From contig VBKI01000047.1 of NCBI GenBank assembly GCA_005879535.1, positions 160,101 through 224,100 of the forward strand: a stretch of 64,000 nt of DNA, read 5' to 3'. The stretch's first letter is position 1; the number at the start of each line of letters is the position of its first letter. A program made the translations under genes and the position numbers. The stretch is from Deltaproteobacteria bacterium. GTDB lineage: Bacteria; Myxococcota; Myxococcia; Myxococcales; 40CM-4-68-19. Under the pieces are notes generated by a model. That model was given only the letters and a program-made list of their open reading frames with translations, was not told where the DNA came from and did not search any database. Positions 36,177 through 50,036 of the stretch are shown here, piece after piece.

Positions 36177-39100
36177 ATGTGGATCGTTCGTCTCGCGCTG
36201 CGGCGTCCCTACACGATCGCGGTGCTCTGCGCGCTGATCGCCATCTTCGGCGTCCTCTCGGCCGGCCGGATGAAGACGGACATCCTTCCCGCAATCGACA
36301 TCCCCGTGGTCATCGTAGTCTGGAACTATCCGGGGCTTTCCGCCGAGGACATGGAACGGCGCGTCGTGTTCATCAGCGAGCGCGCCATGTCGACGACGGT
36401 CAGCGGGATTACCCGCATCGACTCGCAGTCGATGAGCAGCCTCGGCATCCTCAAGGTGTACTTCGAGCCGGGCAGCGACATCGGCGGCGCCATCGCGCAG
36501 ATCGTCTCCGTCTCCCTGACCGCGAGCCGGATCATGCCCCCGGGGATCACTCCGCCGAGCATCATCCGCTACAACGCCTCCAACGTTCCGGTGGCGCAGA
36601 TGACCATCGGGTCGAAGACGCTCTCCGAGCAGGAGATCTTCGACTATGGCCTCAACTTCATCCGCCTGAGGCTGTTCACGATCCCGGGTCTCGCCACGCC
36701 GGCTCCGTTCGGCGGGAAGTTGCGGCAGATCATGGTCGACATCGATCCCGCACGGGTTGCCGCCAAGGGATTGTCGCCCAACGACGTGGTGCAGACCGTC
36801 CTGCAGAGCAACGTCCTCGTGCCGGCGGGTTCCGCCCAGATCGGCGGGACCCGATTCGACGTCCAGCTCAACTCCAGCCCGGACACGGTGCAGGGCTTCA
36901 ACGAGCTGCCGGTCAAGGCCATGGATGGGGCCACCGTGCTCCTGGGCGACGTCGCGCGTGTGCGCGACGGCTACGCGGTGCAGGAGAACGTCGTTCGCCT
37001 CAACGGCCGCCGCGCCACCTACCTCGCCATCCTCAAGAAGGCGGACGCCTCGACGCTGGCGGTGGTGGACGGGGCGCGCGATCAGCTTCCCATCATCCGG
37101 GCGGCGGCTCCACAGGGCATCGAGCTGAAGATCGATTTCGATCAGTCGGTGTTCGTGCGGGCGGCGATCCAGAACGTGCTGCACGAGGCGGCGCTCGCGT
37201 CGATCCTCGTCTCGCTGATGATCCTCTTCTTCCTCGGAAGCTGGCGGGGCGCCGTCCTGGTGATGACCAGCATTCCCCTGGCGATCCTGGTGGGGCTCGT
37301 CGGGTTGTTCCTCTTCGGACAGACGCTCAACCTCATGACCATGGGAGGGCTGGCGCTCGCCATCGGCATGCTGGTCGACGACGCGACCGTCGAGGTGGAG
37401 AACATCCACCGCAACCGGCACATGGGGAAACCGCTCACCGTGGCAATCCTCGACGGCGCTCAGCAGATTGCCGTTCCGGCACTGGCGGCGACGCTCACCA
37501 TCTGCGTGGTGTTCTTCCCGGTCGTGCTCCTCGAGGGGCCCGCGCGCTTCCTCTTCACGCCGCTCGCGCTCGGCGTCGTCATCTCGATGATGGCTTCGTA
37601 CCTGCTCTCGCGCACCCTGGTCCCGACGCTCGCGCGGATCCTGATGGAGAAGGAAGCCCTCCATCCGGAGGGCGAAAGCATCGGGGCCCGCTTCAACCGG
37701 TGGCGCGACGCGATGTTCGGCCGTTTCCGGGATGCGTATGGCCGCACGCTGTCGGCCGTGCTCCACCACCGCGCTCTCGTTCTCGTCTCCGCAGGCCTGG
37801 TGCTCGCCTGCACCGCATTCCTTCCCTTCGTCGTTGGCCTCGATTTCTTCCCGACGGTGGACGCCGGTCAAATGCGTCTGCACTACCGCGCGCCCATCGG
37901 CACCCGCCTGGAAGAGACGGAGCGCCAGGTGGCCAAGCTGGAGCAGCGCATCCAGGAGATGATCCCGCCGGCGGAGCTGGACACGATCAACTCGAACATC
38001 GGGATGCCGATCTCCTACAACCTGGCGTTCGTGCAGACCGACAACACCGGCAGCCAGGATGCCGACGTCCTCATCGCGCTCAAGCCGACGCACGCCCCGA
38101 CGGAACGGTACATGGAGCGGATCCGGCGCGAGCTCCCGGACGAGTTCCCCGGGTCCACCATGTACTTCCAGCCTGCCGACATCGTCTCGCAGGTGCTGAA
38201 CTTCGGCCTGAGCGCGCCCATCGACGTGCAGATCGACGGTCCCGACGTGGAGGCGAGCTATGCGGTCGCGCGCGAGCTGCTGGCGAAGATCCGCGCCATC
38301 CCCGGCGCCTCCGATGTCCGCATTCCCCAGGTGCTCGCGTACCCCACGCTCCGCGTCGACGTCGACCGCGCGCGCGCGGCGCAGGTCGGGATTAGCCAGC
38401 GCGACGTCGCCAACAACCTGCTCGTATCGCTCGCCTCCAGCTCGCTCGTGGCGCCCTCGTTCTGGATCAATCCGAAGAACAACGTGAACTACCCCGTCGT
38501 GGTCCAGACGCCGCTGCGGCAGATCGATTCCATTCCTTCGTTGCTGGGAATGCCTCTGGGCCGCGGAACGGCGCTGATCTCTTCGACGGCTCCTGCGCCT
38601 ATGCCGGCGTCACCACCCGCGCCGGGCGAGCCGCCCGGCAGTGGCTCCTACCTCGGTGCCGTGGCCAGCCTCCGTCCCACCACCGGTCTCTCGATGATCA
38701 ATCACGTTTCCGTCCAGCGCGTCGTCGACGTCCAGGCGAGCGCCACCGGTCGCGATCTCGGTGGCGTCACCCTCGACATCGAGAAGGCCATCCGGAGCAT
38801 CCGCGAGCTTCCGAAGGCGACCCGCATCACGCTGCGCGGGCAGAGCGAAAGCATGTTCACCGCCTTCAGCCGGCTCGGCGTGGGCCTGATCCTGGCGATT
38901 GCACTGGTGTACCTGCTGCTGGTCGTGCTCTTCCAGTCGTTCCTCGACCCGTTCATCATCCTCGTCGCCGTACCCGGAGCGCTGATCGGCATCCTCTGGA
39001 TGCTGGCCGCCACCGGCACCACGTTGAACGTCGAGTCCTTCATGGGCGCAATCATGGCCGTCGGGATCGCCACCTCGAACTCCATCCTGCTGGTCAGCGC

Positions 39101-39428
39101 CGCCAACGGCGCGCGGGTCGAGCAGGGGTTGGGTGTACTCGAGGCGGCCGTCGAGGCCGGAAGGACGCGCCTGCGGCCGGTCCTGATGACGGCGCTCGCC
39201 ATGCTCCTCGGCATGGTGCCGATGGCGCTCGCGATCGGCGAGGGCGGAGAGCAGAACGCGCCGCTGGGCCGCGCCGTCATCGGCGGTCTGATCGTGGCGA
39301 CCTTCGTCACCCTGTTCGTGGTGCCGGCCGTGTACACGCTCCTGCGCAAGGCGCCTCCCAGCGCGCACGAGCTGGACGCGAAGTTCACGGCCGAGAGCCG
39401 CGGCGCTTCCGAGGCTTCCCATGCCTGA
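36177..39428 (+). CDS. RND efflux transporter permease subunit
   Basis: 1083-residue inner-membrane RND pump with the usual twelve helices and two large periplasmic loops. It shows the N-terminal LRRPYTIAVLCALIAIFG, the TM4 Asp pair in IGMLVDDATVEVENIHRN and repeats of PxP-type porter domains. The TM10 Lys found in AcrB (GLxAKNAI) is replaced here by GIATSNSILLV. A Pro/Gly/Ser-rich insert, ASPPAPGEPPGSG, near residue 810 separates porter subdomains. ATG at 36177; its last 8 bases overlap the adaptor gene. No outer-membrane TolC-like factor lies next to it. Substrate unknown. Confidence 0.93.
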   Translation: MWIVRLALRRPYTIAVLCALIAIFGVLSAGRMKTDILPAIDIPVVIVVWNYPGLSAEDMERRVVFISERAMSTTVSGITRIDSQSMSSLGILKVYFEPGSDIGGAIAQIVSVSLTASRIMPPGITPPSIIRYNASNVPVAQMTIGSKTLSEQEIFDYGLNFIRLRLFTIPGLATPAPFGGKLRQIMVDIDPARVAAKGLSPNDVVQTVLQSNVLVPAGSAQIGGTRFDVQLNSSPDTVQGFNELPVKAMDGATVLLGDVARVRDGYAVQENVVRLNGRRATYLAILKKADASTLAVVDGARDQLPIIRAAAPQGIELKIDFDQSVFVRAAIQNVLHEAALASILVSLMILFFLGSWRGAVLVMTSIPLAILVGLVGLFLFGQTLNLMTMGGLALAIGMLVDDATVEVENIHRNRHMGKPLTVAILDGAQQIAVPALAATLTICVVFFPVVLLEGPARFLFTPLALGVVISMMASYLLSRTLVPTLARILMEKEALHPEGESIGARFNRWRDAMFGRFRDAYGRTLSAVLHHRALVLVSAGLVLACTAFLPFVVGLDFFPTVDAGQMRLHYRAPIGTRLEETERQVAKLEQRIQEMIPPAELDTINSNIGMPISYNLAFVQTDNTGSQDADVLIALKPTHAPTERYMERIRRELPDEFPGSTMYFQPADIVSQVLNFGLSAPIDVQIDGPDVEASYAVARELLAKIRAIPGASDVRIPQVLAYPTLRVDVDRARAAQVGISQRDVANNLLVSLASSSLVAPSFWINPKNNVNYPVVVQTPLRQIDSIPSLLGMPLGRGTALISSTAPAPMPASPPAPGEPPGSGSYLGAVASLRPTTGLSMINHVSVQRVVDVQASATGRDLGGVTLDIEKAIRSIRELPKATRITLRGQSESMFTAFSRLGVGLILAIALVYLLLVVLFQSFLDPFIILVAVPGALIGILWMLAATGTTLNVESFMGAIMAVGIATSNSILLVSAANGARVEQGLGVLEAAVEAGRTRLRPVLMTALAMLLGMVPMALAIGEGGEQNAPLGRAVIGGLIVATFVTLFVVPAVYTLLRKAPPSAHELDAKFTAESRGASEASHA

Positions 39429-40542
39429 GACCTCTCCCCGCAGCCGCTTGATCGCGGCCGGCAGCATCGTCGCCGTCATTGCCGCGGCTGCGGGCACCAT
39501 CGCGCTCTTCGCCCGCGAGCGCAGCGCGCAGGCGCGCCAGTCCGAAGCGTTGCGGAAGGAGCTGGCGGAAGGACCGGTGGTGCAGGTCGCGCGCATCGAG
39601 CTGGCGGCGGCGGATCGCCTGGTTTCGCTTCCCGCCGAAGTCCGCGCCGAGCAGCGGGCGACGCTCTACGCCAAGGTGAGCGGCTACGTGAAAGAGGTGC
39701 GGGTCGAGCGCGGCGACAAGGTGCGCAGAGGGCAGGAGCTGGCGGTGCTCGAGTCTCCCGATCTCGACGCGCAGGTGGCGTCGGCGCAGGCGGAGCTGAC
39801 GTTCCGGCGCCAGCAGCTCGCGCGCGTCGAGCGCCTGGCTTCCTCGGGGCGCGTGTCGGTACAGGATCGCGAGGCGGCCGACGAAGGCGTGAAGGTGGCG
39901 CGGGCCGCGCTGGTTCGTGCCCAGGTGCAGAAGGAGTATCAGGTGCTGCGGGCTCCGTTCGACGGCACGGTGACGGCGCGCTTTGCAGACCCCGGGACGC
40001 TGCTGCCCGCGGCGACCGGAAGCACCTCTTCCGCGCAGCCGCTCCTGGAGGTGGCGCAGCTCGATCGGCTGCGCGTCGCCCTCCAGCTCGGTCAGGACGA
40101 CGCTGCCCGGGTGCACGTCGGCGACAAGGTCCAGCTGCAGACCTCTCCCGATCAGCCGCCCTTCGAGGCGCGCATCTCGCGGATCTCGCAGAGCCTGGAT
40201 CCCCGGACGCGAACCATGCTCTGCGAGATCGATCTGGCGCAGCCGCCCCAGGGTCTTTATCCGGGCGCCTTCGTTCAGTCCCGGCTGCCGCTCCACGGTC
40301 CGCCACGGCCGCTGCTTCCGACCGAGGCGCTCCTCGGCCGGGGCGGGCAGCTCCTCGTCGCGCTGGTGGAAGACGGAAAGCTCCATTTCCAGCACGTGCG
40401 CCTCGGCGTCGACGACGGCGCCAAGGTCGAGGTTCTCGACGGCTTGCGCGGCGGAGAAGTGGTCGCGCTGAATCTCGGGCCGGAAGTGCCCGACGGCTCG
40501 CCAGTGCGCGTGCAGCAGGAGCCTCGCCGCGAAGGCCGGTAG
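39421..40542 (+). CDS. RND efflux periplasmic adaptor (membrane fusion protein)
   Basis: 373-residue membrane fusion protein that would bridge the RND permease and an outer-membrane channel. It has an N-terminal anchor helix (about 8-30), the lipoyl/biotinyl half motif ATLYAKVSGYVKEVRVERGDKVRRGQELAVLESP, a short helical hairpin (about 110-165), the second lipoyl half KEYQVLRAPFDGTVTARFADPGTLL, then beta-barrel and membrane-proximal domains. It overlaps the permease by 8 bases. It converges on the TonB-like gene of the motor operon. Confidence 0.93.
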   Translation: MPETSPRSRLIAAGSIVAVIAAAAGTIALFARERSAQARQSEALRKELAEGPVVQVARIELAAADRLVSLPAEVRAEQRATLYAKVSGYVKEVRVERGDKVRRGQELAVLESPDLDAQVASAQAELTFRRQQLARVERLASSGRVSVQDREAADEGVKVARAALVRAQVQKEYQVLRAPFDGTVTARFADPGTLLPAATGSTSSAQPLLEVAQLDRLRVALQLGQDDAARVHVGDKVQLQTSPDQPPFEARISRISQSLDPRTRTMLCEIDLAQPPQGLYPGAFVQSRLPLHGPPRPLLPTEALLGRGGQLLVALVEDGKLHFQHVRLGVDDGAKVEVLDGLRGGEVVALNLGPEVPDGSPVRVQQEPRREGR

Positions 40543-40560: not shown

Positions 40561-41163
40561 TCAAGCGCCCGGGCTGAGCGCCAGCGTAGCGAACAGCTCG
40601 ACGTCCGAGGGCAACTCGACGTCCCGGAAGTTCCAGCCGGTCGCTACCTTGCGGAGGCATTGAGCTACGAGCGGTGTCGGTCCGCCACCCGTGAACTCGA
40701 GGCCCTTTACCGCGCCCGTCCGCGCGACGCGCAGGCGCACCGGTACAGATAGCGTCGCTGCGTCGCCCGGAACGCACGGGCTCAGCGACGCGGCGCGGGC
40801 CCGGACGGCGGCGAGCAGGAGATCCCGAGGGGCGCGCTGTAGCGGTGGCCGCTGTGCAGGCCTGAGGCGCTGGGACGGCGCCGTCGACGCCGGCGTCGAC
40901 GTCGGCGCGTCATCGGGCCTCGCCGCGCCGGGCGTCTTCTCAGCCGCCTTCGAAGGCCCCGAGGCGGACGGCTGATCCTGCTCTGGCGCCCCGGGCCACA
41001 ACGCCCACACGACCAGGACGGCCGCGACAGCGAGGAGTACGAGGCGCCAACGCCTCTTCGTTCGCCGCGCACCCGCCAGAGGCCGACGCACCTGGCGCAC
41101 CGGCCGCGCCAATCGCCGCCCGCGGCGTCGCGCCGACAGCGTTCTTGCGGCGACCGCCGTCAC
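40561..41163 (-). CDS. TonB/AgmX-like energy-coupling protein, last gene of the motor operon
   Basis: 200-residue protein with one membrane helix (about 50-66, LVLLAVAAVLVVWALWPG) after a basic cytoplasmic start. A Pro/Thr/Ala linker then leads to a C-terminal domain, LSPCVPGDAATLSVPVRLRVARTGAVKGLEF...LVAQCLRKVATGWNF. This repeats the pattern of myxobacterial AgmX/TonB C-terminal domains: Cys, a strand with RTGxVK, then a Cys-containing helix xxCLRKxxxxW. TonB-like proteins carry force or contacts to the outer membrane. GTG start overlaps the upstream stop (GTGA). Assigned by pattern; not a standard TonB. Confidence 0.7.
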   Translation of the reverse strand: MTAVAARTLSARRRGRRLARPVRQVRRPLAGARRTKRRWRLVLLAVAAVLVVWALWPGAPEQDQPSASGPSKAAEKTPGAARPDDAPTSTPASTAPSQRLRPAQRPPLQRAPRDLLLAAVRARAASLSPCVPGDAATLSVPVRLRVARTGAVKGLEFTGGGPTPLVAQCLRKVATGWNFRDVELPSDVELFATLALSPGA

Positions 41164-42131
41164 CGCAGCGTCTCCAGCACCTGGTACCAGCGCTTGGCGA
41201 TGTCTCCCCACAAGGCGGACGCGCCGGAGCCGAGCGCATCGCAAAGATCGATGCGGCTTGCCAGGTCGGGCTTTCGCGCATTCATCTGCGCGGCCCACGG
41301 GTCGAAGAACCCCATCGACGAAGGCGCCAGGACGTCGAGCGCAGCGAGCGGGAAACCGGGAATCGCGGCGCACCGCTGCCGCAGCGCGGTCAGGTCGCCA
41401 TTCTCGGAAGTGGCCAGCATCAGGAACAGCGTCTGCCTGATTCGCAGGATGCGATCGAGACGGGCCCATCGGACGGGGTCCGCATTCGAGAAATCGTCCG
41501 CGCGACAGTCGCTCAGGGGGTGCGGCCGGGCGCCGGCGTCGATCAGGATGACCATCAGCGCCCCAGGCCCCGGCGTGAAAGGCCGCACTCTGCCTGCGTA
41601 GGTCCACGCCCAGAGCGCGGCGCCCTCATTCAGCAGCGCATCCGTCGGGCAGGTCGTCGGCAGGGTACCGGCCCGCGAAGCGGACACGTCGCGCAACACT
41701 ACGGCGAGCGTATCGGGAACCGGATTGTTCGGGACATCCCTCAAAGCCCAGACCGTCTCCTCGGCGTACAGTTCGGAAACCGCAACCGAGGTCACGAGCA
41801 GTCCCTGCTGCGTCAGCGAGGTCGTAATCTGTTTCAAGAGGACCTGCAGGGGCGTAGCGAGATTCGCGGTGCCCTGGTCGATGCGGAGCATCACCAGGAC
41901 CGCGGTGCCGGTGTCGCCGTTCTTCCCCGTTCCCGGAATAGGTCCCGGACCTGCGTCGATACCGCCTCCTCCTCCGCCACCGCCACCGCCTCCGCCACCG
42001 CCTCCGCCTCCGCCTCCGCCTTCACCACCTCCACCCCCGCCCCCGCCGTCGGGCACCAAAGGAAGATCGATCTGGTACATGCACGCGCAGGTGCACGCCA
42101 GAACCAGCGCTGCCAGGAGGCAGCGGTTCAT
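41160..42131 (-). CDS. lipoprotein with long polyglycine linker
   Basis: 323-residue predicted lipoprotein. The signal peptide MNRCLLAALVLACTCACMYQ ends in a lipobox-like VLAC. Residues 29-60 are almost pure glycine with one Glu, making a very flexible tether. The C-terminal 250 residues form an alpha/beta domain with strands such as TAVLVMLRID and GALMVILIDAGARPHP and paired Cys; a vWA-like or Rossmann-like fold is possible. The ATG at 42131 overlaps the FliF/FliG-like stop (ATGA). General layout resembles the first lipoprotein of the operon. Confidence 0.75.
   Translation of the reverse strand: MNRCLLAALVLACTCACMYQIDLPLVPDGGGGGGGGEGGGGGGGGGGGGGGGGGGGGIDAGPGPIPGTGKNGDTGTAVLVMLRIDQGTANLATPLQVLLKQITTSLTQQGLLVTSVAVSELYAEETVWALRDVPNNPVPDTLAVVLRDVSASRAGTLPTTCPTDALLNEGAALWAWTYAGRVRPFTPGPGALMVILIDAGARPHPLSDCRADDFSNADPVRWARLDRILRIRQTLFLMLATSENGDLTALRQRCAAIPGFPLAALDVLAPSSMGFFDPWAAQMNARKPDLASRIDLCDALGSGASALWGDIAKRWYQVLETLR
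41962..42046 (-). repeat. GGN trinucleotide tract encoding polyglycine
   Basis: About 85 bases of imperfect GGC/GGA/GGT triplets (seen on the plus strand as CCG, CCA and CCT), broken by one GAG. It encodes the polyglycine tether of the lipoprotein. Because the unit is three bases, slippage changes linker length without breaking the frame. Confidence 0.85.
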
Positions 42132-43774
42132 GGCGCGGCCACCACGCGCGGACGCCATGAGCGCACGTCGGCGGGCTGCAGCCCGATGCGGTCCGCTTCT
42201 TCGCGGAGCTTGCGCAGGATGTCGCGGCGGGCGCCGAGGAACGCCTCTCGCGAGACGCCATTGCGCATCGACAGCTCCTCCTCCACTTCCGCGCGCAACC
42301 GCTGCGGGCAGGCCTTGAGCACATGTGTCCGCACGGTCTCGTCTGCGCCGGCGAGATAGGCGACGAGGTTCGCCGGCCCGATGGCCAGCGCCGCCGTGGA
42401 GAGCAGATCGAGCGGCGCCGAAGCCAGGGAGGACTCGGTCATCAGGCCCGGCAACGCGCGGCTGTCGCCTTCCCGGCGCAGCTTCTCCAACAAGGCGTCC
42501 TGCTCCTCGCGCGAGAGCGAATCCAGCATGTCCGCGAGAGCGCGATCCGCGGCGCTCGGTCCGGCGTGCAGGTCGGCGATCCGTGCACGCAGCTCGTCGG
42601 CCGCCGCGAGCGCGTACCCGGCGCTGACCTCCGGCTTTCGTGCCCAGGTGAGCGCGATCTCCTGCCGCTGCGCGGCGGGAAGCTCCCGCAGCGCAGCGGC
42701 CCGCAGGTGCGCCGGCGCGAGCCTGAGCGCGACCTCCTGCGCGCCGGGCGACAATCCTCGCCAGGCCGCCAGGAATGCCTCGGGGCGCACGCCCTCGAGG
42801 AACGCGAACGCGTCCGCTTCGCCGGCTCGCGAAAGCCGCGTGGCGAGCGTGCGTCCTTCCAGCGCCTGCAAGGTGGTGGCGCGCAGGGCGGGATCCAGCG
42901 GCTTTGCGACCTCGGATGCGAGCGCCTTCAGCGCCGGCGCGAGGGCGCCGTCGCCGCGGAGGTCCTCGAGCAGGAACTCGCCCAGCTCGCGGACCCAGCG
43001 CGCGACCAGGGCGTGCTCTCCCTTGCCCAACGCTTCCCGGACCACGGCGTTGCGGAGCGCTCGATCGTCGACGAGCTGCTTCTCCAGCTTCCGCGCCCGC
43101 ATGGCGGGGAATGCGTCGTCGCGTTGCGCCTCGGGCGAGGATTCCGGCGCCCCCTCGAGGAGGGGCAGATCCGCATACGCCGGCTCCGGCGGCCTGCGCG
43201 CGGCGAAGTAGAAGAGGCCACCCAGCACCAGCAGCACGCCGCCGAGCAAGATCGCGATGGCGAGGACGGGCGCCGAGTCGATCAACTTGTCGAGAATGCG
43301 CGAGGATGTCGGCGCCGCCGCGGCGAGCTCTGGCTTCTGCTCCGGCTCGGACGCCTTCTCCGGCGGGGTCTGCGGCTGCGGGTCCACGTAGGGTGGCGGG
43401 TTCCGCGGCGGGAAGCTCACCTGCGAGACCTGCACCGTCGCCGGCACCCCCGCGGCCGACAGCTTCTGCCCGATCAGCGCGCGCATGCGCGACCGGAAGG
43501 CGGAGGGGAGCCGCTGGTCGACGAGGATGTTCGCGCTCACCGAGCGCAGAACCGGGACCGTCCGCGCGCCCGGGGTGTCGAATCCGGGAGTGCGCTCACC
43601 GCCCGCGTCCTCTTCGTCGACGCGCGCGGCGACGGACAGCACCACGCATTGCTCCGGACAGAGCGTCCGGAGCAGGTCGGTGGCGTCCGCCCGAGCGCGC
43701 TCCTCGGCCTCGTGCTGCAGTGTCGCGCCAGCAAGGGGCGCAGCCGCGATCGCCGCTGCAATCAGGAGGAACAT
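42128..43774 (-). CDS. FliF-like/FliG-like fusion protein, rotor-type component
   Basis: 548-residue protein. A signal peptide (1-18) leads to a periplasmic region (about 40-125) whose strand-helix part SVSANILVDQRLPSAFRSRMRALIGQKL resembles the segment before the second helix of the flagellar MS-ring protein FliF. One helix (169-190) crosses the membrane and the rest is cytosolic. Residues 300-400 (LSPGAQEVALRLAP, LRELPAAQRQEIAL) resemble the FliG middle domain and 440-535 resemble the FliG C-terminal torque domain: LVAYLAGADETVRTHVLK, QRLRAEVEEEL. By eye, Arg 492 and Glu 499-500 fall where E. coli FliG has Arg 281 and Asp 288-289. It lies 3 bases downstream of the MotB-like gene. Confidence 0.75.
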   Translation of the reverse strand: MFLLIAAAIAAAPLAGATLQHEAEERARADATDLLRTLCPEQCVVLSVAARVDEEDAGGERTPGFDTPGARTVPVLRSVSANILVDQRLPSAFRSRMRALIGQKLSAAGVPATVQVSQVSFPPRNPPPYVDPQPQTPPEKASEPEQKPELAAAAPTSSRILDKLIDSAPVLAIAILLGGVLLVLGGLFYFAARRPPEPAYADLPLLEGAPESSPEAQRDDAFPAMRARKLEKQLVDDRALRNAVVREALGKGEHALVARWVRELGEFLLEDLRGDGALAPALKALASEVAKPLDPALRATTLQALEGRTLATRLSRAGEADAFAFLEGVRPEAFLAAWRGLSPGAQEVALRLAPAHLRAAALRELPAAQRQEIALTWARKPEVSAGYALAAADELRARIADLHAGPSAADRALADMLDSLSREEQDALLEKLRREGDSRALPGLMTESSLASAPLDLLSTAALAIGPANLVAYLAGADETVRTHVLKACPQRLRAEVEEELSMRNGVSREAFLGARRDILRKLREEADRIGLQPADVRSWRPRVVAAP

Positions 43775-43777
43775 GAT

Positions 43778-44410
43778 CTACTCCACCCGGATGAGGACAC
43801 GCCGGTTCGAGGCCCTGCGCTGCTCCACGTCCTGCTCGGCCGCCGGGGAGAGCGGCCGCGTGTCGGCGTAAGCGCGCGCGCTCATCCGGTCGCGCGCGAC
43901 TCCGCTCGTTTGCAGCGCCTGCAGCACGTTGATCGCGCGCTGCGACGACAGCTCCCAGTTCGAATGGAACGACGAGGTGTTGATCGGCACGTCGTCGGTG
44001 TGGCCCTCGATGGTGACTGGCCGTCCGGGCAGCTCGCGCAAGAGACGCGCAATCTCGCCGATCGCCGGCTGCGCCTCTTCGCGCAGCCTGGCGCTGCCGG
44101 AGTCGAAGAACAGCGCGTCGCGGAACTCGATCCCGAGGCCTTCCGCGTCGTCGCGGGTTCGCACCTTGTCTTTCAGCTCCGGGGTCCGGGCAATGAGCGC
44201 ATCGACCTTGTCGCGCAGGTCCTCGAGCGGCGCCTGGTGGGTTCCGGTGAGCGCCGCGGCAATCCGCTCGAACTGCGCCCGCTTCATCGGAACGGAGGCA
44301 ATGATGAGGACGAAGAATCCGACCAGGAGGGTGAGCATGTCGGCGTAGCTGATCAGCCACAGCTCGTCCTGCGCGCTCTCTTCCTGCAGCTCGCGGGTAT
44401 CGATTGCCAT
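43778..44410 (-). CDS. MotB-like stator protein with OmpA peptidoglycan-binding domain
   Basis: 210-residue MotB homolog. The cytoplasmic start and single helix read WLISYADMLTLLVGFFVLI (residues 18-36); Asp 24 corresponds to the proton-carrying Asp of MotB. After a short linker the OmpA C-terminal domain follows (GIEFRDALFFDSGSARL, VTIEGHTDDVPI, SNWELSSQRAINVLQAL, NRRVLIRVE), which would anchor the stator to peptidoglycan. It is shorter than flagellar MotB in the linker/plug region. It follows the MotA-like gene by 3 bases. Confidence 0.93.
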   Translation of the reverse strand: MAIDTRELQEESAQDELWLISYADMLTLLVGFFVLIIASVPMKRAQFERIAAALTGTHQAPLEDLRDKVDALIARTPELKDKVRTRDDAEGLGIEFRDALFFDSGSARLREEAQPAIGEIARLLRELPGRPVTIEGHTDDVPINTSSFHSNWELSSQRAINVLQALQTSGVARDRMSARAYADTRPLSPAAEQDVEQRRASNRRVLIRVE

Positions 44411-44413
44411 GCG

Positions 44414-45190
44414 CTACCCGAGGGCCACTTCGACGCGCGGGGCGCTGCCGGAGCCGTCGTCGCCGAACAGGGCCCGCACGTCAGCCAATGGCTTTCCTTC
44501 TCCGACGAGAATCAGCGCGCGCGACAGCAGCCGTGCCTCCTCCAGCGTGACCACCGCGTGCACGTGCACGAGCCGCGCGAGAGGCTGATACACGCCATTC
44601 GCCAGCACCAACCCGTACAAGGTGCAGAGCAGGGCGAGAGCCATCGAAGGACCGAGATGGTCGAAGTTGCGCAGATCCTTGAGCAGCGTGATCAGCCCCA
44701 GGGTGGTACCGACGAGGCCGACCGCAGGGGAGACGCGGGCCAGGGAAGTCAGCACGTCCTCGCTCCGCTTCATCACCGAAGCAAGTACCGTGCTGGCCGT
44801 CGCCGCGGTGCGCTCGATGTCGTCGGGCGAGTATTGCTTGACGACGAGCGGCGCGAGCTGACGCAAGAGCTCGTGCTGTGCGCCCTCGGCGATGGCCAGC
44901 GCCTCCGCCGGCCGGCCACGCCGCACTCCCGCCGCGAACCGTGAGAGCTCGTCGTGGAGGATGGCCCGGGAGCGGACCGCGGAAAAGCGCATCGCCTTCC
45001 AGATCGTGCGCGTGCAGACCGCCATCTCCTCCAGCTTGTGCGAGATGAGCGAGATGAACAGCGGACCGACGCAGAGCAGGAGGAGCGCGGGACGGTAGAT
45101 CAGTCCCGAGAAGGCCGCCTCCCGCTGCTCCAGAAGGACCGTGGCGGCGAGCACCGCGGCAAACCCCAACATTCCGACCGCGACGTGCAT
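44414..45190 (-). CDS. MotA-like stator protein
   Basis: 258-residue MotA/TolQ/ExbB family protein with four helices, the MotA arrangement: about 3-20, 32-50, 152-171 and 180-204. The conserved VSPAVGLVGTTLGLITLLKDL and LGPSMALALLCTLYGLVLANGVYQPLA include prolines 155 and 203 at the places of MotA Pro 173 and Pro 222. A long cytoplasmic loop (55-150) is rich in Arg/Glu, where MotA contacts FliG. With the MotB-like partner it would form a proton-driven stator. I chose the ATG at 45190 (TGATG with the previous stop); a GTG at 45193 is equally possible. Confidence 0.92.
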   Translation of the reverse strand: MHVAVGMLGFAAVLAATVLLEQREAAFSGLIYRPALLLLCVGPLFISLISHKLEEMAVCTRTIWKAMRFSAVRSRAILHDELSRFAAGVRRGRPAEALAIAEGAQHELLRQLAPLVVKQYSPDDIERTAATASTVLASVMKRSEDVLTSLARVSPAVGLVGTTLGLITLLKDLRNFDHLGPSMALALLCTLYGLVLANGVYQPLARLVHVHAVVTLEEARLLSRALILVGEGKPLADVRALFGDDGSGSAPRVEVALG

Positions 45191-45924
45191 CACTCCTCCT
45201 TCAGCGCGCGGAGCGCTTCGGCAACCGTGGTGTCGGACGGATCGATCTCCAGCGACTTCTTCCAGGCCTCGCGCGCGAGGGCCGCCTTCCCCAGTTTCTG
45301 GTAGAGCGATCCCTTCATCGCCAACAGGCGCGCGTCCTTCGGGTATTGCTGCTCGAGATCGACCACCTCGATCAGCGCCAGCTCGTAGCGGTGGGCGGAA
45401 TACATCTCGGAGAGCTTGGCGAGAGTCGCCAGATAGCTCCTCGATCGGCCCTCGGGCGGCGTCTTGCCCGCGAGCATCTCCTGGTCCGCAGCGGTCGGCG
45501 TCTCGATTCCCTGGCCGAGCGGAATGCGGACCTCGTAGCCACCGGTGCTCTCGGGCAGCTCGACTTCCCAGACGCGGCCACGGTCCACCAGCCGCAGCAT
45601 GTAGCGCTGGGAGGACTGGGTCGGCACGGCAGGGGAAACGAGCTTCTGCGGCGGCGGCACGGGCTTCGGTGTGGCGGCGCCGGCGACGGTGGTGGGCGCT
45701 GCCGCCGCAGGCCGCGGGGCGACCTTCGCCGGGTCGTCGGAGCCGACGGCATAGCGATCCACGCCGGTGATCTTCGATCCCTGGGCATTGCCGGCAGACG
45801 CTTCGCCGACGGATTGCCCGGTGGCGAGCGGCCGCCGCATCTCCTCCGGAATCACGAGCCGCTTCATCGGCTCCGAAGCGCAGCCGAGCAGAAGACAGGC
45901 GGACGCGGCGAGTCTCAGTTCCAT
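45190..45924 (-). CDS. TPR-containing lipoprotein of the motor operon
   Basis: 244-residue predicted lipoprotein. The signal MELRLAASACLLLGCAS has a lipobox LLGC (Cys 15). A Pro/Ala linker (about 65-105) leads to a beta segment (YMLRLVDRGRVWEVELPE) and then about two TPR units ending ALAREAWKKSLEIDPSDTTVAEALRAL. The Pro-rich linker may span the periplasm. Position: 10-base overlap with the barrel gene upstream and direct coupling to the MotA-like gene. A scaffold role at the outer membrane is inferred. Confidence 0.75.
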   Translation of the reverse strand: MELRLAASACLLLGCASEPMKRLVIPEEMRRPLATGQSVGEASAGNAQGSKITGVDRYAVGSDDPAKVAPRPAAAAPTTVAGAATPKPVPPPQKLVSPAVPTQSSQRYMLRLVDRGRVWEVELPESTGGYEVRIPLGQGIETPTAADQEMLAGKTPPEGRSRSYLATLAKLSEMYSAHRYELALIEVVDLEQQYPKDARLLAMKGSLYQKLGKAALAREAWKKSLEIDPSDTTVAEALRALKEE

Positions 45925-47027
45925 AGGAACCCCAATCCCACTTCGGGGCTGAAGCCGCCGTACTGCTCGGCCGCACTGCCGACCGTGAACGGCACCATGT
46001 AGCGGAGCGCCCCGTGCAGCCCGATCCGCGTCCCGACCTGCCAGCGCATGGTTGCGCCGAGCAGGGCGGTATTCGCCCCGTTGCCGGTCACGAAGACGCC
46101 CCCGTCGACGCCAAACCAGAACTCGGACAGATACACGTTGCCCCGCCCGGCACGGCCCTGGAACATCATCCCGAGGATGCCCGCTCCGAGGTGGTTGGGA
46201 CTGAAGAAACCCGCCGCCGTCAGGCCGGCTTCCCATTCCTTGTCGCCGCCGAATCGCTCCGTCAGGCGGTACCGGCCGATGCCGCCCCAGAATGCGCCGC
46301 TCTTCGCGTCGACCATCATCATTCCGAGCTCGATGGCAGCCGTGTAGCGCGGTCGCTGGTTGAGCTTGTCCTCCAGCTCCTTCAGCCGTTCCTCGCGCGT
46401 TTGCGCGCGGTCGGCGCCCCGGTAGAGCATCGCCCGATCCGCATCCATGCGGTATCCCTCGGCGAACGCAATCGACGAGTCCTCGGCGCGCACCACCTCC
46501 ACGTCCATGGAAAGGGACGCGGGCTCCTCGCGCATGGTCAGGGCGACGTCGAGGAACGTGCGCGCGCCATACTTCTTCGCGACGTCGCGCGCCTGCTCGC
46601 GCGTGGTGACGCCGCGGCTCACCACCCATTCGCCCCCCTCCACGCGGCTGCGCGTCGCATCGCATTCCGCGCAGCGCACCAGCGCCAGGTTCGCGGCCTT
46701 GAACACGGCCGCGGCCAGCCGGGCCTCGAAGATGTGCGCATATTCCGGGTTCATGTTGGCGGAGACGCGCACGCGATCGAGCAGTACCGGACTGATCTTC
46801 GCCGCTCCCAGACGCGCGATGTCGACGGAGAACTCGTCGAGCATCTCGTCGACGATGTCGTCGGCCCTCACGTCGTGGCCGGGAGTGACCATCGTCCCCT
46901 CGACGCGGTTCGGGTGGGCCGCTTCTGCCTTCTTGCGCGCATGGATCGCCGCCGCCGCGGGCAATTCGCCCTGCGGTTCCTGCGATGGCGCCACCGCCTG
47001 CGCGAAGAGAAATGCGAGCGCGATCAT
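45915..47027 (-). CDS. CsgG/LpoB-like domain with C-terminal outer-membrane beta-barrel region
   Basis: 370-residue secreted protein (signal peptide about 1-14). The N-terminal half (about 50-205; DRVRVSANMNPEYAHIFEARLAAAVFKAANLALVRC, AKKYGARTFLDVALTM) has the layout of CsgG/LpoB-type periplasmic domains, with a CAEC Cys pair. A coiled segment REERLKELEDKLNQ precedes a C-terminal half of alternating amphipathic strands (AAIELGMMMV, LTAAGFFSP, GVDGGVFVTGNGANTALLGATMRW) ending in a Trp-Asn, typical of outer-membrane barrels. The family match is weak; the topology is better supported. ATG overlaps the TPR gene's stop (ATGA). Confidence 0.65.
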   Translation of the reverse strand: MIALAFLFAQAVAPSQEPQGELPAAAAIHARKKAEAAHPNRVEGTMVTPGHDVRADDIVDEMLDEFSVDIARLGAAKISPVLLDRVRVSANMNPEYAHIFEARLAAAVFKAANLALVRCAECDATRSRVEGGEWVVSRGVTTREQARDVAKKYGARTFLDVALTMREEPASLSMDVEVVRAEDSSIAFAEGYRMDADRAMLYRGADRAQTREERLKELEDKLNQRPRYTAAIELGMMMVDAKSGAFWGGIGRYRLTERFGGDKEWEAGLTAAGFFSPNHLGAGILGMMFQGRAGRGNVYLSEFWFGVDGGVFVTGNGANTALLGATMRWQVGTRIGLHGALRYMVPFTVGSAAEQYGGFSPEVGLGFLWN

Positions 47028-48532
47028 GGTGGACCTCGGGCTTCGAACCAGTCGTGGAGAGCTCCATCCGGACCGGGAATGGCAAGCAGCGAGGCCGGCT
47101 CCGGGAGATCGAGGAGCACGGCGGGCTCCGGCGGAGGCTCGGGTGTGCGCACGACGTCGATCCGGCCGAGCGCGAGCCTTTGCTCGCCCTCGTCCGGCGC
47201 CGGCTGCAGCGAGGTGACGAGCGCTTCGATCTGCGCCGCATCCCTCGTGGGCAGCCGCTCGCGCAGCCAGGCGAGCTGCGACTTCAGCGCGTCGCGGTGG
47301 GTACCGCCCTCGGCTTCCCTCAGCACGATCGCGTGCGCCAGCTGCAGCGCGGCCGAGTCGCGCGACTCGCGCTCGGCGACCCGCAGCCGCTGCGTGAAGA
47401 GCCGCTCGAGCGCCGCCTGCGTTTCCTTCACCTCTCCGGAGGCCCAGCCGATCTCGCCGGCGAGCGCCAATCCTTGCGCGCGCCAGCGCGGGTCGCTTGC
47501 CGTTTGCAGCTGGAGCGCCGCATCGCGCGCGGTCTGGAGGTTTCCGGCGGCGAGCGCTCGTTGGGCCAGCTCCGTCCAGGCGGCGTCCCGCCCGGCGACG
47601 CCGATGAAGGGCTCGAGCCGCGCCGGATCCGCCGGCTGACGGGCGAGGGCGGACATCGCCAGCGCGCGGATCGCCTCCTGCCCCTTGCCCTTGCCGGGCA
47701 GCGATCGGGCGCGGGCGAGCACCTCCAGCATCTCCTTGTCGCGCCCCATGCTTTGCAGCGCGACGGCCCGCGCCCAGAGGATTGCGCGGACCATCTCCGC
47801 GCGGGTGGCGTCCGCCGGGAGCTCGATGGATGCGGTGAGGTCGACGACTTCCTCGTATCGACGCTGTCGCAAGAGCTCCGCCGATGCCCGCGTCACCACC
47901 GCCAATTGCGGCCACTCCGCAACGAGCGGGAGCCAGCCCTCCGGTGGATCGAGCTTCGCTTCCAGGCGCAGGAATTGCGTCGCGCGCCGCAAGCTCGGGT
48001 GCAGCCGCTGGACCTCGACGGCGGCGGCACCCTCCGTCGACCCCTTGCGCCAGAGCAGGATTGCGCGCTCGTAGGCAGCCCGCGCGGCGGGCTCGGGAGG
48101 CAGCGCCTTGACCAGCTCCGGAGTGAGCAGGGGCAAGGGCCCTGCGCCCTTGGCGGCCTTCCTGCAGTTCGATGGCACGGGACCGACGCGCAGCACTTCG
48201 CCGGGCCAGCGCTCTTCCTCGTCGGGCCAGAGCAGCGCGTTCCGTGCGTCCGGATTCCAGACCGTCCGCCGGAAGAAGTCGTCACGGAGCACGTCCGACC
48301 AGATCGTGTCGGGCGCTCCGCGGCGCGCCTCTTCCACGCGCACCATCGCGCGGAGCGGGTCCGGCTCGGCGAGCTTGTCCAGCGGATCGCAGCTGACGAG
48401 CCGCAGGAGGTCCGCGAAGAGCTCGCGCTGCTCGCCGGTCCGGTTCTCCTGCAGCTCGCGGTGGAGCGCGCCGAGGTCCCGTTCCCAGAAGGCGTCGAGA
48501 AATGGGGTGAGAAGGAGGAGGACCGCGATCAC
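47024..48532 (-). CDS. exported helical-repeat (TPR-like) protein of the motor operon
   Basis: 502-residue protein. The N-terminal hydrophobic stretch VIAVLLLLTPFLDAFWERD is an anchor or signal. Most of the rest is helical repeats (about 200-460), including AYERAILLWRKGSTEGAAAVEVQRLHP and AAWTELAQRALAAGNLQTARDAALQL, consistent with TPR or related solenoids. The C-terminal 50 residues are Pro/Leu-rich. I placed the GTG start at 48532, overlapping the upstream stop (GTGA). Likely a periplasmic scaffold; no catalytic motif. Confidence 0.72.
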   Translation of the reverse strand: MIAVLLLLTPFLDAFWERDLGALHRELQENRTGEQRELFADLLRLVSCDPLDKLAEPDPLRAMVRVEEARRGAPDTIWSDVLRDDFFRRTVWNPDARNALLWPDEEERWPGEVLRVGPVPSNCRKAAKGAGPLPLLTPELVKALPPEPAARAAYERAILLWRKGSTEGAAAVEVQRLHPSLRRATQFLRLEAKLDPPEGWLPLVAEWPQLAVVTRASAELLRQRRYEEVVDLTASIELPADATRAEMVRAILWARAVALQSMGRDKEMLEVLARARSLPGKGKGQEAIRALAMSALARQPADPARLEPFIGVAGRDAAWTELAQRALAAGNLQTARDAALQLQTASDPRWRAQGLALAGEIGWASGEVKETQAALERLFTQRLRVAERESRDSAALQLAHAIVLREAEGGTHRDALKSQLAWLRERLPTRDAAQIEALVTSLQPAPDEGEQRLALGRIDVVRTPEPPPEPAVLLDLPEPASLLAIPGPDGALHDWFEARGPP

Positions 48533-49107
48533 AGCCAACCTCCGACCGTGAGTACCGGCAAGAATCCAACCGCGAACACCGACGAGCTGCGATGCTCGAG
48601 CGAGCCGACCACGGTCAGATCGAGCTGGCCGTAGAGGCGGTCGCGCAGGCGCGCGACCAATCCGACGAACCCGCAAGCGGCCGGGGTGAGGGCCCGGTCG
48701 GTGAGAAGCGTTCCCAGATCGCCGCCGCCCTGCACGTCGAAGTGCACGACGGAGCCGCCCAGGGCGACCTTTCCGTAGGTGAACGAGTGCCGCCAGCCCG
48801 CTGCGACCAGCGACACCGGCTTGTGGGCGTCAGGGACGAGCCCGGTACTGTTCACGACTTGCGACCCCGAAGACCCGAGCCAGGAGGCGAACAGGGCGGC
48901 GCGAATCTCGATGGCGTCGCTCTCCCGCAGATAGTAGGCGCCCGAGAAGACCGCGCCCGGGCTGTTGTAGTAATCGCCGCGCTCGAGCCAGGTCAGGCCG
49001 CCGGAAAGGAAGTAGTGGTGGTCCTTGACGAACAGCCGCGGCTCGATGCGGATCTGCTGCGCGAATGCCGCAGGCGCGATCAGCGCTGCAAGGAGAAAGG
49101 CTTTCAT
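48529..49107 (-). CDS. small outer-membrane beta-barrel protein of the motor operon
   Basis: 192-residue protein with signal peptide MKAFLLAALIAPAAFAQQ, followed by repeated amphipathic strands (HHYFLSGGLTWLERGDYY, AIEIRAALFASWLG, PVSLVAAGWRHSFTYGKVALGGSVVHFDV, RDRLYGQLDLTVVGSL) compatible with an eight-stranded barrel. The C-terminus VLTVGGWL is not the usual terminal Phe/Trp-only pattern but close. ATG at 49107 overlaps the first lipoprotein's stop (ATGA). Function unknown. Confidence 0.72.
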   Translation of the reverse strand: MKAFLLAALIAPAAFAQQIRIEPRLFVKDHHYFLSGGLTWLERGDYYNSPGAVFSGAYYLRESDAIEIRAALFASWLGSSGSQVVNSTGLVPDAHKPVSLVAAGWRHSFTYGKVALGGSVVHFDVQGGGDLGTLLTDRALTPAACGFVGLVARLRDRLYGQLDLTVVGSLEHRSSSVFAVGFLPVLTVGGWL

Positions 49108-50036
49108 CCGTTCCTCACCAGGCAGCGCCGGGCTTCGTCCCACCGGGCGGGATCCGCGCCCGGTTCGTCGACATAGTAGCGATCGCAGTTCGCCGTGCAG
49201 CCCTCGACGGTCATGTCAAAGGTGGAAGTCTCGAAGAGCGACTTCGGCGTTGCGACCAGCTGCGGAACGGTAAACGTGATCGTGGGAGGATGGGCGCGAT
49301 CGAGGACGTGCGCCGGTCCCACCGGCGGATAATTGGAAGCTGCTGGGTCAGGGTTCTTGCACAGCTTGAACTCCCGCGTGCTCTCCAGCTGGGAAGCAGT
49401 CAAGAGCGGGACCGGCCCGCTGCTGAGCGCCGCGGTGGTCTGCAGCGGCAGATCCGTCCTCACCGCCGTGCCGACCCGCTTCACCAGGTCGGCGTCGCCC
49501 GCGTAACTCCAGGCCACTGCGCGGTCGGCGGCGAGCTGGCCCGCCACCGGCGGATGCGAAATCGTCCAGATCAGGGCGGGTGGATCGGACAGCGACCGCG
49601 CCGCGTGCAGCGCGGCCAACGTCTCTGCGGAAGTCGGCAGGTCGACGTCATCGACGTAGACGATCACCGGACGGACGTGCGCGCCGGGAAAAGTGGTCAA
49701 CGCCGAATCGAATCCCGCCCGCACCCGATCGAGATCGAGAGGCACCCGCCCCCGCTCCCGGCAATCGGGTGAGAGATCCTGCCCCGCCAGCTCGAGCTGG
49801 CGCGTTCCGGAGGAAGCGAATCCTTGCCGCACCGCCAGCAGCGTCGCCTGCCTGGCCCAATCGCAGCCGGTAGTGTCCTCGAAGAAGAGATCGAGAATGG
49901 CGATCCAGACCACGGGTTCTTCGATGGCCGCGGATGTGTACGTCGCCGACGTCGTGAACAGTCGTGGCGGATTCGGGTCGACGAAATGAACCTCGCCGCA
50001 TCCTGCAAGCAGGAGCGCGAAGAAAGCGGCGCGCAT
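49104..50036 (-). CDS. lipoprotein, first gene of the motor operon
   Basis: 310-residue predicted lipoprotein with signal MRAAFFALLLAGCGE (lipobox LAGC, Cys 13). The mature domain is alpha/beta with strands PVVWIAILDLFF, RPVIVYVDDVDLP and ALIWTISHP, and a Cys-rich tail (TVEGCTANCDRYYV). Order and style of strands resemble the polyglycine lipoprotein near the other end of the operon, suggesting distant paralogs; a vWA-like fold is possible. The 165 bases upstream, toward the head-GIN gene, contain a weak AT-rich patch near 50150-50180 and may hold the operon promoter. Confidence 0.75.
   Translation of the reverse strand: MRAAFFALLLAGCGEVHFVDPNPPRLFTTSATYTSAAIEEPVVWIAILDLFFEDTTGCDWARQATLLAVRQGFASSGTRQLELAGQDLSPDCRERGRVPLDLDRVRAGFDSALTTFPGAHVRPVIVYVDDVDLPTSAETLAALHAARSLSDPPALIWTISHPPVAGQLAADRAVAWSYAGDADLVKRVGTAVRTDLPLQTTAALSSGPVPLLTASQLESTREFKLCKNPDPAASNYPPVGPAHVLDRAHPPTITFTVPQLVATPKSLFETSTFDMTVEGCTANCDRYYVDEPGADPARWDEARRCLVRNG

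Follow-up and report, generated by a model that had tools for sequence, protein, structure and literature searches.

We analyzed a 64,000-nucleotide window from the genome of a soil myxobacterium (Myxococcota; Deltaproteobacteria bacterium, assembly GCA_005879535.1; contig VBKI01000047.1, positions 160,101 to 224,100) and found that the open reading frame (ORF) at window positions 42128-43774 on the minus strand encodes a membrane-anchored homolog of the flagellar rotor protein FliG, here named FG. The genes for a flagellar-type stator, MotA and MotB, lie directly upstream of FG, and we consider FG to be probably the rotor subunit of a non-flagellar rotary motor whose output is directed towards outer-membrane proteins. 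The source genome, listed as 100% complete, gave no match to FliG_N (PF14842), the domain that binds the FliF tail, to FliMN_C (PF01052, covering FliM and FliN and hence also SctQ-like proteins), to the FlhA/SctV export gate (PF00771), or to YscJ_FliF (PF01514, covering FliF and SctJ). The central features are as follows.

42128..43774, minus strand: FG, FliF-FliG-like fusion protein of 548 aa (Pfam FliG_C; AlphaFold2 model; Foldseek and VIA-align)
Parts of FG: signal peptide; periplasmic RBM3-like domain (residues ~20-122); transmembrane helix (~168-192); helical FliG-like part (224-534)
42173..42445, minus strand: FliG C-terminal domain of FG (residues 444-534) with the torque helix and R492, E499, and E500 (1qc7 superposition; alignment)
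43778..44410, minus strand: MotB, with plug and transmembrane segment carrying an invariant Asp24, and an OmpA-type peptidoglycan-binding domain (Pfam OmpA 3e-20, MotB_plug 2.5e-11; invariant columns)
44414..45190, minus strand: MotA, flagellar-type (PomA-like) stator subunit with an invariant Arg90 (NCBIfam PomA 5e-22; PDB profile to PomA 1e-21; tree)

FliG homology and the fusion architecture

The Pfam FliG_C model matched FG residues 465-528 (E=5.3e-8; score 33.5 bits, cut-off 23.3). An AlphaFold2 model built from 14 homologs (mean pLDDT 70.9, C-terminal domain ~90) retrieved FliG structures at all of ranks 1-13 in a Foldseek search of the PDB, followed by PrgK/SctJ and the FliF RBM3/S-ring, and it superposed on the crystal structure of the Thermotoga maritima FliG C-terminal domain (1qc7) over 89/89 residues at 1.9 Å (VIA-align Z 12.9). 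The preliminary description of this DNA had proposed, from a pattern of charged residues seen by eye, a FliG-like domain joined to a membrane anchor in one polypeptide. The ORF is real, the FliG fold is borne out by the above-threshold FliG_C match and both structural comparisons, and a transmembrane helix does precede the FliG part. Homology of FG to FliG rests on the hidden Markov model (HMM) and the structure, the charge pattern by itself being suggestive. At the N-terminus, residues 9-122 aligned with FliF RBM3 at a VIA-align Z of ~10.

A phylum-wide FliG_C scan identified eight more fusion-type proteins in eight Myxococcota genomes.

L057 (7589-12102) and L088-L094: second FliF-FliG fusion family

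Seven of these proteins were ~485-530 aa long after the start was trimmed, and one was cut by the contig. Where the contig extends far enough, they adjoin MotA-MotB-MotB genes (in L057 a TPR gene intervenes), and some of their genomes also hold an ordinary FliG. The second-family profile matched canonical FliG at ~1e-20, FliF at ~1e-5 through RBM3 and the transmembrane helix, and the window FG at 2.5e-7, and hhalign gave 1.5e-9 against FliF and 2.9e-11 against the window FG family. One member matched the TIGR00207 fliG model (E=2e-16, below the model's full-length cut-off), most share an RGD motif with FliF RBM3, and the equivalents of FliG R281 and D289 are invariant in the family. Judged from their sequences, in which both the FliF and the FliG relationship are clearer than in FG, these proteins establish the FliF-FliG fusion as an architecture. 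Because the family is homologous to FG, the same architecture is supported for FG, whose own N-terminal domain appears FliF-like by fold only.

Other FliG_C proteins were also found in the phylum. A cytosolic family of ~340-680 aa (L095-L101, L103), common in Myxococcaceae, has a FliG_N-like start, a weak FliG_C match, and mostly a Pro/Arg-rich tail, with no MotA/MotB in the stretches fetched; weak FliG_C matches of ~460-680 aa in other genomes were rejected as FG systems and assigned to a different, cytosolic family. In genome G178, a 200-aa ORF (L102, 4803-5405) with a transmembrane helix and a FliG_C match of 45 bits is perhaps a smaller rotor-like protein.

Torque charges and the flagellar-type stator

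Charges were mapped on a MAFFT alignment of the FG family with 30 canonical Myxococcota FliG proteins, picked by phmmer with a self-written generic FliG-like query; the counts take in only genome sequences found in this way. The E. coli FliG numbering, known from the literature, was put on the alignment by motif. The torque helix aligned without gaps, and the residue correspondences proposed earlier (R492 with R281, E499/E500 with D288/D289, and A475 at the K264 position) were upheld, in agreement with an HMM alignment to H. pylori FliG. Conservation across homologs held for the acidic pair and in part for the arginine. E499 and E500 were invariant in 14/14 close homologs, and in a wider set of 13 sequences, two of them distant, position 499 was acidic in 12/13 and position 500 in 13/13, whereas position 492 varied among R, K, and S. 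E500 was the sole column among 91 C-domain columns to be fully acidic in the FG family, the second fusion family, and canonical FliG. In 14 columns, 90% or more of canonical FliG C-terminal domains share the same charge; 4 were kept in the FG family, 3 of them being R281, D288, and D289 (hypergeometric P ~0.09, worked by hand), and the charge pattern therefore supports function without proving it.

The top-scoring models for MotA were PomA/MotP/MotA. Both fusion families have stators that grouped with flagellar MotA/PomA in a maximum-likelihood tree (support 100/100), and 26 TolQ/ExbB-type proteins from five genomes, with AglR not identified by name among them, fell apart from the window MotA. 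MotA/MotB is a stator of flagellar type by its clade, by the torque arginine of MotA, and by the transmembrane aspartate, plug, and OmpA domain of MotB. In E. coli, MotA R90 contacts FliG D288-D289 and MotA E98 contacts FliG R281 (PMC12505986). The R90 equivalent (PomA R88), partner of the acidic pair, was R in all 15 stators of the first family and K or R in all 7 of the second, and the MotA-FG set comprised ~15 sequences in essentially two clades. The E98 position was not kept in FG-family stators, its alignment being uncertain by a few residues with the column shifting between alignments. Compared with the stator, the torque pattern thus stood in one half, R90 and the acidic pair being kept on both partners, and not in the other, E98 and R281 being relaxed on both; with R281 variable and E98 unconserved, the family retains just one of the two charge pairs known from E. 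coli. The reading we favor most is that FG is pushed by the stator.

Operon, distribution, and selection

FG, MotA, and MotB belong to one block of ten genes (40561-50036, minus strand) with several stop/start overlaps. The other genes of the block are as follows.

49104..50036, minus strand: g1, Cys-rich lipoprotein and first gene of the block (conserved in 10 loci; lipobox LLLAGC)
48529..49107, minus strand: g2, outer-membrane beta-barrel protein (NCBIfam OMP_myx_plus 1e-8, below cut-off; conserved)
47024..48586, minus strand: g3, protein with an N-terminal transmembrane helix, start uncertain (conserved in ~11 loci)
45915..47027, minus strand: g4, secreted protein with a C-terminal aromatic residue, possibly outer membrane (conserved in 14 loci; no family or PDB match)
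45190..45924, minus strand: g5, TPR lipoprotein (Pfam TPR_8 2.7e-5; lipobox LLLGC)
41160..42131, minus strand: g9 (ORF332), lipoprotein-like, with a poly-Gly linker and a von Willebrand A (vWA)/integrin-I fold (AlphaFold2 model; Foldseek/VIA; start ATG overlapping the FG stop)
40561..41163, minus strand: g10, transmembrane protein with a conserved C-terminal domain that appears TonB-like by eye (conserved in 12 loci; no family match)

The AlphaFold2 model of g9 (domain pLDDT ~93) resembles integrin I and vWA domains, with a Foldseek E of 1e-4 and Z values reaching 12.5, and its vWA metal-site motif is degenerate by eye. A PDB profile search with g9 returned poly-Gly artefacts only, and those with g4 and g1 returned no match. 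The vWA fold of g9, the barrel of g2, the further lipoproteins, and g10 together suggest force transmission to the outer membrane. The DNA coding for the poly-Gly linker of g9, which follows the lipoprotein signal, is an imperfect 6-base tandem repeat (41962-42047, minus strand), and the linker length varies between relatives. Adjoining the operon on the opposite strand (36177-40542, plus strand) is an RND-type efflux pair, a large transporter and a periplasmic adaptor, recognized by eye from the translation.

FG homologs were identified in 13 other genomes by a single-sequence search; in a genome-contig set, a single-sequence scan with FG gave no match and a profile scan gave eight loci. The gene order MotA-MotB-FG-ORF332 was kept in all genomes with a sufficiently long contig, and the whole block in ~10 of the 13 FG-holding genomes. 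Among named strains, Archangium lansinium is a holder. Distant versions elsewhere in the phylum, on short contigs, hold homologs of MotA, MotB, FG, g2, g4, g5, and g9 in varying combinations, and conservation of the operon extends over families of Myxococcota and in part over its classes. Between the window and its nearest relative, the ratio of nonsynonymous to synonymous substitution rates was 0.16 for FG, 0.10 for MotA, and 0.09 for MotB, and all three are under purifying selection. FlhA was also missing in the holders G001, G002, G007, and G010, but the absence is not universal, as some Archangium-type holders do carry type III genes.

A proposed motor, its alternatives, and its meaning

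We infer ring formation, stator contact, rotation, and the function and output of the FG machine along the following lines. The RBM3-like domain and transmembrane helix of FG would form or seed an inner-membrane ring in the manner of FliF, and the cytoplasmic FliG-like part would be the ring turned by the adjacent peptidoglycan-anchored MotA/MotB stator, with MotA Arg90 acting against FG Glu499/Glu500 as the retained contact and the MotA E98-FliG R281 contact relaxed. Fusion of the FliF-like and FliG-like parts would remove the separate joint between MS-ring and switch. As FliM, FliN, and an export gate are absent, the machine should build no filament, nor should it switch by the CheY-FliM route. 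Torque may be relayed through the periplasm by the other operon proteins to outer-membrane components, including the vWA/integrin-I-fold lipoprotein, and the output would perhaps be the movement of adhesins, as in gliding, or of surface material.

Compared with the flagellar rotor (FliF, FliG; PomAB/MotAB), the FG system is alike in the FliG-M/C fold, the acidic pair of the torque helix, the domain that is RBM3-like by fold and is followed by a transmembrane helix, and the flagellar-clade stator with an OmpA-type MotB. It differs in that a single polypeptide carries both the FliF-like and the FliG-like part, in having no RBM1/RBM2 and no FliM-binding motif, in its operon partners, and in a genome without FliM/FliN, export gate, or filament genes. 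The Myxococcus AglRQS/Glt gliding machinery is likewise an inner-membrane motor powered by ions, with outer-membrane proteins as its presumed targets, and the vWA-fold lipoprotein of the FG operon recalls its adhesin CglB, a von Willebrand A-domain protein of M. xanthus according to a title cited in PMC11444678; in contrast to AglRQS, the window MotA is flagellar-type in the tree, Agl proteins having been placed among generic ion transporters (PMC12505986), and two gliding reviews mentioned no FliG-like part. The type III secretion basal body (SctJ/SctK/SctQ) also has an inner-membrane ring protein with RBM domains, and PrgK was among the FG structure matches, but the FG genome lacks an export gate and an SctQ-like FliMN_C protein and has MotA/MotB. 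Zorya (ZorA/ZorB) is another non-flagellar MotA/MotB-type motor, and the window MotB scored with ZorB models; this identity was rejected, as MotA had no PADLOC ZorA match and no defence partner was found among the genes tested.

Several results weigh against a rotor. The fold behind the RBM3 match is ferredoxin-like and common, the C-terminal domain of MamB scoring alike, which makes the match weaker evidence when taken alone, and hhalign of the FG-family N-terminal domain against FliF was not significant, leaving the likeness one of fold. The overall model confidence (pTM) of FG is only 0.34, so that the model gives no domain arrangement. The FliM-binding EHPQ motif is missing, the EHPQT of H. 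pylori FliG aligning to unrelated residues. Among the 13 sequences, the R492 position is R in 8, K in 2, and S in 3, the last all in Myxococcaceae-type relatives including Archangium; the K264 position is K in 0/13 and R in two, and the R297 position is unconserved in the family.

The preliminary description had left the choice between a rotor and a track. It was right in homology and topology and partly right in the charges, and the motor it implied is plausible; of its two options, a rotor ring is favored because a FliF-type ring-building domain precedes the FG membrane helix. As a track or fixed anchor, FG would form patches along which stators move or by which they are held, and force would reach the outer membrane in the way suggested for the focal adhesions of myxobacteria. 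We consider this unlikely: the likeness of the outer-membrane lipoprotein to CglB, known here from that cited title, would fit it, but the RBM3-like domain, the actual FliF RBM3 sequence in the second family, and a flagellar-type stator with an OmpA anchor, unlike the TolQ/ExbB-type paralogs, speak against it. Somewhat more doubtful still is a structural or regulatory role, in which FG, having an ARM/MgtE_N-like fold, would serve the stator as activator, brake, or scaffold without being turned by it. FliG and the N domain of the MgtE magnesium transporter are related superhelical folds, MgtE_N scored 22 bits on FG (cut-off 25.9) and 33 bits in one distant relative, and half of the torque charges are lost; FliG nevertheless outscores MgtE in both sequence and structure, and the acidic pair survives together with the stator arginine. 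An MgtE-like origin of FG was rejected on the same grounds, FG having no MgtE transport domain and no MgtE appearing among the Foldseek matches listed. The rotor and stator parts are related by descent to those of the flagellum, as the parts of a decaying flagellum remnant would be, but we reject this as highly improbable given purifying selection, a ten-gene operon kept with non-flagellar partners across families and partly across classes, and no other flagellar genes in the genome.

With a rotor as the preferred reading, we give equal weight for and against to the broader proposal of an undescribed class of envelope-spanning rotary machine, in which flagellar-type stators drive a minimal FliF-FliG ring that turns outer-membrane adhesin-like lipoproteins, with switch complex, export gate, and filament all absent. 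We found no description of FliF, FliG, or MotAB outside flagella in myxobacteria in the literature, of which our coverage was partial, so that this absence is no proof. In PMC12505986, flagellar-type stators are classed together as a single flagellar group, and their torque-generating interface is linked to flagellar motility. We find a stator of this type, together with what appears to be a rotor of its own, in genomes that have neither a flagellum nor a type III apparatus. Because an unrooted tree places both fusion families to the same side of canonical FliG (support 89/100), the FG-type motor may be either a stripped-down derivative of the flagellar rotor or its sister. As a named Archangium strain holds it, the machine is amenable to gene deletion and tomography. 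If FG is a rotor, the system would be a naturally minimal motor in which torque could be studied apart from switching, export, and filament; it would bear on whether rotor and stator evolved apart from secretion, and it would add a candidate myxobacterial surface motor besides Agl/Glt.
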